A stretch of 64,000 nucleotides of DNA from Psychroflexus planctonicus (lineage in GTDB: Bacteria; Bacteroidota; Bacteroidia; Flavobacteriales; Flavobacteriaceae), in assembly GCF_014640195.1 (NCBI RefSeq), contig NZ_BMGM01000002.1, positions 1-64,000 of the forward strand. The letters run 5' to 3'. Both the position numbers and the translations under genes were made by a program. Positions 7,133-32,640 of the stretch are shown here, piece by piece; positions within the stretch are counted from its first letter, which is position 1, and every line of letters starts with the position of its first letter. The notes below the pieces were generated by a model, which saw nothing but the letters and a program-made list of their open reading frames with translations, made no database searches and was not told where the DNA came from.

Positions 7133-7258
7133 TTTTCGAAGTGAGAAGTAAGATATTAGATATTAGAAGTGAGATATTAGAAGTGAGATATAAGAAGTTA
7201 GAAGTTAGAAATGAGATATTAGAATTGAGAAATGAAAAATGAGATTTGATACTAGAAA
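7133..7258 (+). repeat. AT-rich GATATTAGAAGT repeat array, hisB-hisH gap
   Basis: Degenerate copies of the unit GATATTAGAAGTGA and relatives (AGATATTAGATATTAGAAG, GAAGTTAGAAGTTAGAAAT). The same unit forms a cleaner array after hisA (8968-9106) and occurs in opposite orientation before hisF (9598-9722). Copy borders are not sharp. Confidence 0.7.
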
Positions 7259-7285
7259 TACAAATTGAAAACGAACGATAAAAAA

Positions 7286-7378
7286 GCCCCAGCGGGGTGA
7301 AATCTTAATAGCCCAGCGGGGCGAAATCATAATTGCCCCAGCGGGACGAAATTATATTAGCCCCAGCGGGGCGAAATC
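7286..7378 (+). repeat. Four-copy tandem array of a CCCCAGCGGGG palindrome
   Basis: Four units of the form GCCCCAGCGGGGCGAAAT start at about 7286, 7311, 7335 and 7360, a period of 24-25 bases, with AT-only spacers of about six bases. Each has a 4-bp GC stem around AGC (copies 2 and 3 carry one change each). The array stands between hisB and hisH in an AT-rich setting. No reading frame explains it. It resembles dispersed GC palindromes I associate with Bacteroidota intergenic regions. Confidence 0.8.
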
Positions 7379-7998: not shown

Positions 7999-8023
7999 TG
8001 AACTGAATTAACAATAAAATTGA

Positions 8024-8100
8024 GCAGAAATCGGTTGTGAAGGAGTGATTTTAGGAAAACGATTTATGAGAATAGGATTTGCTTGAAACAGATAGCGGTA
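8024..8100 (+). pseudogene. Duplicated fragment of the hisA 3' end
   Basis: These ~77 bases match the last part of intact hisA (about 8869-8948) with only a handful of substitutions. A missing G after GGAAAA and a two-base gap near the end break the frame. The copied part encodes the HisA tail (about [25 protein letters not shown]). After the match, both copies run into purine-rich repeat, which suggests duplication of a block of hisA end plus repeat. It lies between hisH and intact hisA and cannot encode anything useful. Confidence 0.85.
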
Positions 8101-8177
8101 TTTAGTAGAGAGTAGAGAAGAGAGAAGAGAGTAAAGATAATAGATAATGGAAAAATGAGTTTTAAGAATATTTGAAA

Positions 8178-8230
8178 AACAAGAAATCTCTGATTTCTTG
8201 TTGACAACCGACAACCGACAACCGACAACC
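8178..8230 (+). repeat. Perfect hairpin plus ACAACCG tandem repeat before hisA
   Basis: AACAAGAAATC at 8178-8188 pairs perfectly with GATTTCTTGTT at 8192-8202 around TCT (11-bp stem, 3-base loop). No T-run follows, so it is not a normal terminator. Directly after it the 7-base unit ACAACCG repeats about four times (8204-8230), ending eight bases before hisA. Confidence 0.75.
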
Positions 8231-8238
8231 CCAAACCC

Positions 8239-8967
8239 ATGAGAATCATACCCGCAATAGACATCATTGAAGGAAAATGTGTTCGCTTGACCAAAGGCGA
8301 TTACAATACCAAGAAAATATACAACGAAGATCCATTGGAAGTAGCTAAATCTTTTGAAGGCGTAGGAATTGAGTTTCTGCATTTAGTCGATTTAGACGGA
8401 GCTAAATCCAAGCACATTGTTAACCACAAAGTCCTAGAAAAAATAGCATGCAAAACCAACTTGAAAATCGATTTTGGCGGTGGATTAAAATCGGATGAAG
8501 ATTTAAAAATTGCTTTCGAATCAGGGGCAAATCAAATTACCGGCGGAAGTATCGCGGTAAAAGATCCAAGTATTTTTACGGCTTGGTTGACGAAATTCGG
8601 AAGTGAAAAAATCATCCTTGGAGCCGACTGTAAAGATGAAAAAATCGCTGTAAACGGTTGGCAAGATGAAAGTGAACTCGACATTCTTCCGTTTATTCAA
8701 AATTACCAAGAGGAAGGCATTCAATATGTAATTTGTACCGATATTTCAAAAGATGGCATGCTGCAAGGCCCGTCATTCGATTTGTATCAAAAAATCATTC
8801 AACAAACACCCGAAATCAAACTCATCGCTTCTGGTGGAATTTCAAATATCGATGAATTCCCAAAATTAGCTGAAATCGGTTGTGAAGGAGTAATTCTAGG
8901 AAAAGCGATTTATGAGAATAGGATTAGTTTGAAACAGATAGAACGGTATGTGGTAAGTTGGAAATAG
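8239..8967 (+). CDS. hisA: ProFAR isomerase
   Basis: Phosphoribosylformimino-5-aminoimidazole carboxamide ribotide isomerase, a TIM barrel that opens the ring of ProFAR to give PRFAR. 242 residues. The first catalytic Asp lies in [20 protein letters not shown] and the second in [13 protein letters not shown]; the phosphate-binding loops are [11 protein letters not shown] and [10 protein letters not shown]. Start ATG 8239 follows the ACAACCG repeats directly. The 3' end exists twice in the window (see the fragment at 8024). A 14-bp tandem repeat begins at the base after the stop codon. Confidence 0.95.
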
Positions 8968-9106
8968 GATATTAGAAGTGCGATATTGGAAGTACGATAT
9001 TAGAAGTACGATATTAGAAGTTGGATATTAGAAGTAGGATATTAGAAGTACGATAGTAGAAGCCTGCCTGCGTGACCTAGTCAGGCAGGTACGATATTAG
9101 AAGTAA
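8968..9106 (+). repeat. 14-bp tandem repeat GATATTAGAAGTAC with an inserted palindrome
   Basis: Units start at 8968, 8982, 8996, 9010, 9024, 9038, 9052 and 9093, each close to GATATTAGAAGTAC. After the truncated unit at 9052 the array is split by 30 bases (9063-9092) that hold CCTGCCTG and CAGGCAGG as an 8-bp inverted repeat around an 11-base loop. The array starts immediately after the hisA stop codon. Looser copies continue to about 9135. Confidence 0.85.
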
Positions 9107-9211
9107 AAAATATGATATTAAAAGTTAAAAGGATTAAATACGAATTTTAGATGTTTAAATTGAGTGACATGGTCTTAATTTCTTTATTTTAACTAAATAA
9201 AACCAATTCCT

Positions 9212-9577
9212 ATGAAAAATGAGATACTTAATAGAACAAAAGCTTTTGCTATAGATTGTTGGAAATTTTGTTTTCTAGTTCCAAAGTCTCGTGAATTTAA
9301 TGCTTATGTAAACCAATTAATAAGGTGTTCTAGTTCAGTTGGTGCGAATTATCGAGCTTCACAAAGAGCCAAATCTACACGCGATTTTATTAATAAATTG
9401 AAAATTGTGGAAGAAGAAGCAGACGAAAGTCTGTATTGATTAGAACTTTTTGAAGAAGTCTTGCCTGAGAAAAAAGACATTATTTTACCACTACAAACAG
9501 AAGCAAAAGAACTCTTAGCCATCATGGTGGCATCAATCAATACAGCAAGGGCCAATCAATATAAAAAAAGTAAATAA
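9212..9577 (+). pseudogene. Four-helix-bundle protein (23S rRNA intervening-sequence type) with in-frame TGA
   Basis: The frame from ATG 9212 matches the four-helix-bundle family first known from 23S rRNA intervening sequences (N-terminal RTKAFAIDCWKF, then IRCSSSVGANYRASQRAKS and FINKLKIVEEEADESLY). At 9437-9439 a TGA stands where relatives normally have Trp (…ESLYWLELFEE…); the same frame then continues with good family sequence to TAA 9575-9577. Without the stop the protein would have about 121 residues, the usual length. One point mutation (TGG to TGA) explains it; a 75-residue stub may still be made. It interrupts the his operon between hisA and hisF and is flanked by opposite-facing copies of one repeat (8968-9106 and 9598-9722). 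Confidence 0.85.
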
Positions 9578-9597
9578 TGAGCCGTTTTGCACTTAAC

Positions 9598-9722
9598 TTT
9601 TTACTTCTAATATTCAATCTCAACTTTTAATATCTAATATCTAACTTTTAATATTTAACTTTTTCATCTAACTTTTAACTTCAAATATTTAATATCGAAC
9701 TTTTAATATCAAACTTCTAACT
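9598..9722 (-). repeat. Inverted copy of the GATATTAGAAGT repeat array
   Basis: On the plus strand this reads ACTTCTAATATT, AACTTTTAATATC, TAATATCTAACTTTTAA and similar, the reverse complement of the unit after hisA, though more degenerate. With the array at 8968-9106 it forms a long imperfect inverted repeat around the four-helix-bundle gene. It ends seven bases before hisF. Confidence 0.78.
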
Positions 9723-9729
9723 TTAAGCC

Positions 9730-10485
9730 ATGCAAACCAAACGAATCATCCCTTGTTTAGACATCAAAAACGGTCGCACCGTAAAAGGAATCAATTTTGA
9801 AGGACTGCGAGATGCCGGAGATCCAGTTGATTTAGCGGAATTATATTCAGAAAACGGAGCAGACGAACTGGTATTTCTGGATATTTCAGCAACCGAAGAA
9901 CGCCGTAAAACCTTAGCACAATTGGTAGAGCGAATAGCCGAACGAATTAATATTCCATTTACAGTTGGTGGCGGTATTTCCAGTATTGAAGATGTAGAAT
10001 TGCTATTGAATTCGGGAGCCGATAAAGTTTCTATCAATTCCGCAGCGGTCAAAAATCCTGAGTTAATCACCCAAATTTCCAAGCGATTCGGGAATCAATG
10101 TGTGGTGGTGGCTATCGATGCGAAACTGATTGAAGGTGAATGGAAAGTTCATTTAGTAGGAGGGAAGCAACCTACGGAAATCGATTTATTCGATTGGGCT
10201 CAAGAAGTAGAAAAGCTTGGAGCAGGTGAAATTTTATTCACATCCATGAATAACGATGGTACCAAAGCGGGATTTGCAAATGAAGCCTTGGCAAAATTGT
10301 CTAGTTTGGTAAATATTCCGATTATTGCTTCAGGTGGAGCAGGAAATAAAGCTCATTTTTTAGAAACATTTCAAAAAGGAAAATCCGATGCCGCTTTGGC
10401 TGCAAGTGTTTTTCACTTTAAAGAAATAGAACTACCCAGTTTAAAAAACTATTTATCAACTAACGGCATATTAGTACGATTATGA
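9730..10485 (+). CDS. hisF: Imidazole glycerol phosphate synthase, cyclase subunit
   Basis: TIM-barrel partner of HisH: uses ammonia and PRFAR to form imidazole glycerol phosphate and AICAR. 251 residues. Catalytic Asp residues lie in [15 protein letters not shown] and in [12 protein letters not shown], where NND replaces the more usual DRD but the key Asp remains. Phosphate loops are [10 protein letters not shown] and [11 protein letters not shown]. The 4-base overlap with hisIE (ATGA at 10482-10485) shows that the tight arrangement of the operon resumes here. Confidence 0.95.
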
Positions 10486-32085: not shown

Positions 32086-32186
32086 TTGGACAATATTTCG
32101 ATTTACGGTTTGCAAATCCGCGAGCTCACGAATCAACATGTCCTCCCTTGAGGGAGGACAAAAGGTGGGTGTTCTTTTTAATAATT

Positions 32187-32315
32187 AACTGTCATACCGC
32201 ACTTGATGAGGTATCTTATAACTATGAAAATTAAAAAATCAGGTCATAATAGCATCAGAACCCAATAACAAACAGATGCCGTATATCGGCTTTTGCCAAT
32301 TACGGCATGACAGTT
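32187..32315. repeat. MITE-like element, copy 2
   Basis: Same ends and interior as copy 3, with a few substitutions (AACTGTCATACCGC at the left end). About 129 bases. The interior TAAAAAATCAGGTCATAATA is shared with copy 3 and absent from copy 1. Confidence 0.8.
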
Positions 32316-32451
32316 TTTAGATGGTGTATTTTTTCGCGGATTACAAATCCGCGAGCTCACGTGTTTTACATGATTTACAAATCCTTAAGTTCACGAATCA
32401 GTATTTCCTCCCTTGAGGGAGGACAGAAGGTGGGTGTTCTTTTTAATAATA

Positions 32452-32580
32452 AACTGTCATGCCGCACTTGATGCGGTATCTTATAACTATGAAAATTAAA
32501 AAATCAGGTCATAATAGCATAAGAACCCAATAACAAACAGAAGCCGTATATCGGCTTTTACCGATTACGGCATGACAGTT
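32452..32580. repeat. MITE-like element, copy 3
   Basis: AACTGTCATGCCGC at the left and GGCATGACAGTT at the right, about 129 bases, over 90 percent identical to copy 2 by eye. It ends 60 bases after the der stop codon in the sense of der transcription. Confidence 0.8.
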
Positions 32581-32640
32581 TTTGTATGGTGTTTTCTTTC
32601 GCGGATTGCAAATCCGCTAGCTCACAACTTATTCTAAACT

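Follow-up and report, generated by a model that had tools for sequence, protein, structure and literature searches.

The gap between hisA and hisF in the window (the whole 64-kb stretch of DNA that was analysed) is filled by an insert that we consider likely to be an element consisting of a heptamer array, a 23S_rRNA_IVP (four helix bundle) gene and an inverted heptamer array, placed between the cistrons of an operon and pointing in the direction of transcription. On this reading, which draws on sequence comparison, the window would carry one now-damaged copy of a compact and widespread element. The upstream cistron hisA (8239-8967, plus strand) and the downstream cistron hisF (9730-10485, plus strand) were identified from the list of open reading frames and their translations; with hisA ending at 8967 and hisF starting at 9730, the insert occupies the whole of the gap between them.

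The left arm (8967-9110, plus strand) is built of heptamer pairs of the GATATTA GAAGTAC type and was delimited using TRF, a repeat finder and its duplex with the right arm. Its core at 8968-9062 has a period of 14, that is, two heptamers, with 6.8 copies and 90% matches (TRF), in agreement with the clean 14-bp array described in a first-pass annotation of this DNA, and the repeat finder placed outlying copies at 9089-9104 and 9110-9125. The right arm (9598-9725, plus strand), delimited in the same way by its duplex with the left arm, is a reverse-complement heptamer array of the TAATATC TAACTTT type, detected by TRF at 9603-9655 (period 20) and at 9635-9720 (period 14). The annotation had its opposite orientation right, but this array is more degenerate and much less clean than the left one. 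An example of an inverted pair, 9094-9109 with 9598-9613, is complementary at 16 of 16 positions (repeat finder). The duplex of 8967-9110 with 9598-9725 has 101 possible base pairs and an energy of -87.3 kcal/mol, compared with a mean of -37.9 (sd 4.3, best -49.7) for 200 dinucleotide shuffles, and the insert (8965-9726) folds at -184.5 as against -139.2 +/- 6.7 for 20 shuffles (z -6.8). The giant hairpin that had been proposed is hence within the reach of the two arrays: the arms are inverted repeats able to close a stem around the insert, as is characteristic of an intervening sequence. We also observed a CCTGCC...GGCAGG palindrome at 9063-9089 that breaks the left array, and similar palindromes lie in or near the arrays of loci L033, L092 and L315.

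The IVP gene of the window (9212-9577, plus strand), located with PF05635, TIGR02436 and a search of the genome, starts with an ATG at 9212 and stops at 9575-9577, on the strand of hisA and hisF. It does lie between these genes, and its kinship with the genes of rRNA intervening sequences, noted earlier, is borne out by scores above the curated cut-offs: with a TGA read through, it reaches 49.9 bits with PF05635, for which the cut-off is 33.8, and 75.1 bits with TIGR02436, for which it is 24. This single in-frame TGA, at 9437-9439, had been missed, and the reading frame is not intact. The 75 residues ahead of the TGA alone score 38.8 bits. Compared with its nearest relatives, the window gene shows a pN of 0.15-0.21 and a pS of 0.56-0.80, and pN is greater after the TGA than before it.

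We examined how far this layout recurs by measuring inverted complementarity between the gaps on the two sides of an IVP gene (up to 150 nt each) against 200 dinucleotide shuffles. Loci were chosen by protein score and not by their flanks, and they are not fully independent because some are orthologous sites. The first set came from a search of 60 genomes, the window's own included, 43 of which carry the PF05635 family; it comprised the best match from each of 30 genomes, 40 further matches by score and the five loci of the window's genome, 75 in all. Inverted flanks reached p ≤ 0.01 at 39 of the 69 testable loci, as compared to none of 56 small genes taken as controls from 40 stretches of 20 kb, placed arbitrarily, and 7 of 133 co-directional control genes of any size. 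A second set was drawn from 43 further genomes of the bacterial family (34 with the IVP gene family); of the 30 loci fetched, 26 could be tested, and 17 of these passed at p ≤ 0.01 and 22 of them at p ≤ 0.05. For a named set, the best 80 of at least 583 candidates in GTDB genomes, the figure was 49 of 65 testable loci, and for a sample of the phylum, where 116 of 148 genomes have the family, it was 13 of 23 testable loci out of 30 fetched; gene ends in this last sample were assigned with an approximate rule, and a handful of loci, L307 for example, may be misparsed. Summed over the sets, with the named set being the best 80 of at least 583 candidates, 32 of the 215 loci fetched were left out, 31 because a gap was shorter than 25 nt and one because of an N, and 118 of the 183 tested loci reached p ≤ 0.01 while 65 missed it. 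The reading of the his insert as an arrangement of this kind outside rRNA and inside a biosynthetic operon is supported, and its layout recurs at most of the tested loci. Six loci of the named set (again the best 80 of at least 583 candidates) that passed at p ≤ 0.01 are in metagenome bins labelled, as given, Ignavibacteriae, Planctomycetota, Omnitrophota, Nomurabacteria, Lambdaproteobacteria and Betaproteobacteria.

The genome of the window has five PF05635 matches, the window locus (L005) included. The other four loci lie between cistrons in repeat-rich gaps, each with a different repeat unit (judged by eye). At L002, L003, L004 and L005 the observed inverted complementarity was reached by none of 200 shuffles (L005, z 4.7), and the flanks of L001 were not significant (p 0.09, 200 shuffles). 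The expectation that other family genes would be flanked by inverted arrays held at 118 of 183 tested loci. By eye, the other four loci of this genome have units different from that of the window, and the window's repeat, GATATTAGAAGT, is not exclusive to the gene.

Gaps around IVP genes are AT-rich and show autocorrelation at 7, 14, 21 and 28 nt in every set; the first set has it at 8, 16, 24 and 32 nt as well. Sharing in direct orientation was also seen (p ≤ 0.01 at 23 of 69 loci, compared with 2 of 56 controls), indicating that part of the loci have same-sense arrays and some have both kinds. AT-rich, low-complexity gaps could look complementary by chance or composition, and both the base content of the gaps and the loci that share sequence directly, not inverted, lean that way. 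We gave this explanation almost no weight, since chance complementarity is ruled out by the dinucleotide shuffles, the two sets of control genes and partner swaps. In the swaps, the summed duplex energy of own arms was -1892 kcal/mol in the first set, compared with -1111 +/- 55 for permuted partners, and -780 compared with -374 +/- 37 in the second. The swap was also made among ten loci that, from a reading of their neighbours, share an orthologous fad-operon junction; here own partners gave -212 and permuted ones -146 +/- 18 (fraction 0.0003). This advantage within a single orthologous junction indicates that the arms change in sequence yet stay complementary. The effect is weaker per locus than in the sums: the own right arm was the top partner in 6 of 69 rows and in 11 columns, and at 60 of 69 loci own partners did better than the median of the swapped ones. 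An earlier swap on fixed 350-nt flanks was weak (20.7 vs 17.0) because homologous flanks were mixed in and the flanks took in coding sequence, and tests restricted to the gaps were used instead. Mismatches in the arms of 124 loci showed no excess of G-U (128 G-U vs 198 A-C; a ratio of 0.65, with 0.75 by composition and 0.81 for swapped arms), so that selection on sense-RNA pairing through G-U wobble is unsupported and such pairing cannot be claimed as the target of selection; inverted ends may act at the DNA level.

The IVP genes also share an orientation with the operons around them. Both neighbours were on the strand of the IVP gene at 69 of 75 loci of the first set, as against 27 of 56 controls, and at 29 of 29 loci of the second; where both neighbours were visible, the same was true of 54 of 59 loci in the named set (the best 80 of at least 583 candidates) and 17 of 20 in the phylum sample.

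We then compared arms, by hexamer cosine, between pairs among the 215 loci whose neighbours were not detectably homologous, a sorting in which pairs may be misfiled where a contig end removes a neighbour. For such different-site pairs the mean arm cosine was 0.34 at a protein similarity of 0.7 or more (47 pairs), 0.14 at 0.6-0.7 (112 pairs), 0.08 at 0.5-0.6 (1052 pairs) and about 0.06 below that; at similarities of 0.6 and above, the observed mean was reached by none of 2000 permutations. In these pairs the DNA match often extends past the gene by tens of nt, at one end or at both, before it stops. Neighbours were read at fourteen such loci, and were unrelated for L033 vs L095 and for L201 vs L205. 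A Mantel test over all distances among 75 loci gave a weak correlation (r 0.10, permutation sd 0.05), and the arm-protein signal, as measured on these sequences, is confined to close protein pairs. Since close relatives at different sites have similar arms, gene and arms behave, or travel, as one unit, and for the family as a whole such a unit is found at non-homologous sites, as with mobile elements. In all of 17 close pairs chosen for the purpose pN was well below pS, and by this measure the IVP protein of the relatives is under purifying selection. Broken copies do occur: the window gene is one, and several of the matches listed are others.

We fetched nineteen relatives of the window's IVP, 50-76% identical to it, and named their junctions by reading the neighbouring proteins. 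Four lie at hisH-hisA (L320, L322, L323 and L326), one at hisA-hisF (L321), one before hisF (L325), twelve in the mur cluster and one elsewhere (L324); both neighbours are co-stranded with the IVP gene in all 19. The window lineage is hence one of his operons and mur clusters in several genera, among relatives of the family Flavobacteriaceae, and related genes occupy hisH-hisA, hisA-hisF and mur junctions, as expected of a mobile element. Eighteen of the 19 are within only two operon regions, a clustering that fits long residence as well as mobility. The tree of the lineage is poorly resolved, with 17 of its 22 inner branches open, and it needs just one change to separate the members at his sites from those at mur sites. 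L322, from the genus of the window, has its IVP gene at hisH-hisA, and its own hisA-hisF gap (L123) measures 10 nt. In a comparison of gaps only, five of the six his members have arms that resemble those of the window (cosine 0.22-0.35), above the 95th percentile of 214 other loci (mean 0.09, 95th percentile 0.164, maximum 0.237); L321, which has no right gap, does not (0.098). The inverted-arm test could score seven of the 19, the others having a gap under 20 nt on one side or both; two of the seven reached p ≤ 0.01 (L324 and L337), and the his-site relatives missed it (0.015, 0.065, 0.48 and 0.21). By eye, the right arm at several mur sites (L327-L338) appears to extend into the beginning of murD or murG, where it would be translated as an NRKSKI-like N-terminal extension of the product.

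An occupied site was compared with empty ones in the genus of the window. HisF was found in 23 of 27 genomes, the window's own included, and the hisA-hisF gap was readable in 19 of the 22 relatives. None of the 19 has an IVP gene there; 15 gaps are 2-39 nt long, and the four longer ones are 85, 106, 107 and 257 nt. In the relative closest by HisF (G009) the 85-nt gap begins with GAAATTAGAAGTGAG, akin to the left array of the window, with no gene, so that an array-like stretch without the gene does exist at this site. Among 30 genomes compared at the HAD-thiolase junction of the fad operon, eight have the gene, ten are bare (gap under 45 nt) and 12 are of other kinds. Five of these 12 are gene-less hairpins (L141, L152, L154, L160 and L167), a call that demanded an inverted pair reached by none of 100 shuffles and a 7/8-nt periodicity of at least 0.55. 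Sequence comparison supports the view that the feature in the window is a real inserted unit, although no transposase, target duplication or recent movement came to light.

The distribution bears on whether the unit is selfish or serves the operon. A domesticated intercistronic device, in which the IVP would act on the hairpin in the RNA that encodes it, setting processing or the ratio of neighbouring cistrons, would be neither selfish nor any longer mobile. Purifying selection on the protein, the his and mur lineages found in several genera one change apart on the tree, and the repeated use of one fad junction would all suit such a device. It is harder to square with patchy occupancy (0 of 19 at hisA-hisF, 8 of 30 at HAD-thiolase), with broken copies and with the same gene and arms at unrelated sites, and we hold it to be a rather unlikely account. 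Patchy occupancy and broken copies favour a selfish element; recurrent his and mur lineages favour the operon device.

Arrays were also found without the gene. In the window, an array of the same repeat type lies at 7138-7242 (plus strand), between the hisB reading frame and hisH, and the hisH-hisA gap holds arrays of the AGAGAGT and GACAACC types at 8096-8243 (plus strand); both stretches were detected by array scan and TRF, and together with the two arms they are all such arrays in the window (array scan). Local alignment identified a partial duplicate of the 3' end of hisA at 8016-8107 (plus strand; source about 8862-8955), followed by array, which suggests recombination between the arrays of neighbouring gaps and may be the trace of a local rearrangement. 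Other repeats detected by TRF in the window were a 25-bp G+C-rich tandem repeat before hisH (7285-7378) and a 265-bp tandem duplication at 32126-32625.

In the genome as a whole GATATTAGAAGT occurs 34 times, and a reversed control once. Ten of its places outside the his operon were fetched; none has a PF05635 match and most are one-armed or direct (by eye). These ten gene-less places mean that the repeat is not exclusive to the IVP gene, and they rule out an exclusive tie between the two. The first-pass annotation had made the case for an element depend on the repeat being tied to this gene family and on the existence of empty sites: the former fails at these ten places, and the latter is borne out by the IVP-less hisA-hisF gaps of all 19 relatives. 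By eye, the gene-less arrays at L309, L311 and L318 are accompanied by dispersed GAACTTCCCTGAATAGCGTTGACCGTTTTG-like sequence, and those at L310, L312 and L313 by a CACCCTTTGCC...CTCAAGGGAAAA-like repeat on either strand.

These observations could indicate that the arrays came first, as independent, dispersed intergenic heptamer repeats, grown by slippage or other means, within which IVP genes land or survive best without carrying arms of their own. The gene-less GATATTAGAAGT places, the gene-less arrays at 7138-7242 and 8096-8243, GAAATTAGAAGTGAG in the G009 gap and the hairpins at the fad junction can all be counted in its favour. Yet arrays are rare away from the gene: arbitrarily placed stretches totalling 600 kb, from genomes with the gene, contained four, and 200 kb from two genomes without the IVP gene contained none, whereas an array lies in a flank of the gene at 37 of 75 IVP loci. 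A single pre-existing array would not be expected to yield two inverted arms around a gene, and close relatives have similar arms even though they occupy different sites and belong to different genera. We consider this account unlikely. When the filter for gene-less hairpins was applied to arbitrary gaps, 3 of 129 passed in gene-bearing genomes, none resembling a heptamer hairpin by eye, and none passed among 32 gaps in genomes without the IVP gene or eight in the window.

Two of the five IVPs of the genome match the Avd model weakly (E 2e-4 and 8e-5), and Avd of diversity-generating retroelements is a related four-helix bundle that resembles PF05635 (PMC10053308). Such matches could point to a diversity-generating retroelement or a group II intron system with the IVP as an Avd-type accessory of the reverse transcriptase. 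The two Avd scores (21.7 and 22.9 bits, from a scan of the five IVPs) are, however, far below the cut-off of 80 bits, and RVT_1 has no match in the window's genome or in G004, G005, G032 and G033, which have 11-16 IVP matches each. The absence of RVT_1 matches from this genome and from several IVP-rich ones disfavours dependence on a reverse transcriptase, and we judge this origin highly improbable. RVT_1 matches were found in 24 of the 60 genomes; two genomes of the window's genus, G010 and G025, have 15 and 13, and the other 58 have 0-2.

Among known systems, the insert comes closest to the 23S rRNA intervening sequences with an S23p/IVP open reading frame in Coxiella, Leptospira and others (PMC4990558). 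The protein family, the small size of the insert and the inverted repeats closing a stem around the gene are common to both. The 23S intervening sequence sits in 23S rRNA, whereas the window element is in a gap between protein-coding cistrons; the only Rfam matches at gathering score in the 64-kb window were tmRNA (1671-2072) and, immediately upstream on the same strand, a Flavo-1 RNA (1543-1625), with no rRNA. The arms, unlike those of the 23S sequences, are heptamer or octamer arrays that vary by lineage, and IVP relatives here are under purifying selection while for Coxiella it has been suggested that no S23p is produced (PMC4990558). The element thus resembles an intervening sequence by its layout, yet it lacks the 23S rRNA location by which that class is defined. 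The PF05635 and TIGR02436 models cover the protein only, and arms and operon placement are outside their definition. Of the solved members of the family, 2gsc matches the IVP of L001 well (E 7e-15) and 2rld only at 0.025. REP/RAYT and MITE-like elements are small, intergenic, palindromic or inverted-repeat elements with gene-bearing and gene-less forms. The insert differs from them in having no transposase gene, and its arm sequence varies across the genome.

TAACTGA heptamer repeats have been reported from Beggiatoaceae, Cyanobacteria and some Bacteroidetes (PMC4679880). They too are intergenic heptamer arrays, Bacteroidetes included, but they are direct repeats of one unit, whereas those described here are inverted, lineage-specific pairs around one gene family; the main text of PMC4679880 does not contain 'four helix', 'S23' or '23S' and draws no link to the IVP family. 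Eighteen IVP-family genes have been noted in cas loci (PMC3936711), and in Flavobacterium columnare a four helix bundle gene is listed, without remark on repeats at that point, between the genes for guanylate kinase and a nicotinate adenylyltransferase (PMC5524665). In the open-licence literature we found no description of IVP genes within inverted heptamer arrays between cistrons.

Comparison among loci shows the layout, its recurrence, the 7/8-nt periodicity, the orientation with the operon, the purifying selection and the joint travel of gene and arms, all at the level of sequence. In the mechanism that we propose for a hairpin-armed element, the arms would pair in the operon transcript and close a long stem, with the gene isolated in its loop, and the looped gene would allow the insert to be tolerated between cistrons with little harm. 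RNase III may trim the insert, as it does with the 23S rRNA insert of Coxiella (PMC4990558). The protein itself, which is related to the retroelement accessory protein Avd, probably binds the arms, as RNA or DNA, and once bound might serve the upkeep or movement of the element.

A broader proposal, which we put forward tentatively as a possibility, is that the IVP family is mainly the protein of undescribed minimal mobile hairpin elements. These would be about 450 to 750 bp long, with inverted 7- or 8-nt arrays that evolve fast and are still complementary; they would enter between cistrons in the orientation of the operon, have no transposase or reverse transcriptase of their own and leave gene-less hairpins behind. 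The 23S intervening sequence would then be a special case that was noticed first. For genes that carry no annotation beyond 'four helix bundle protein', this would supply a physical setting and a role open to testing, as parts of hairpin-armed elements of operons. The finding would also tie the puzzle of the 23S intervening sequences to a phylum-wide element and account for some of the heptamer repeats described from Bacteroidetes, and it poses the question of what keeps both arms complementary while their sequence turns over.
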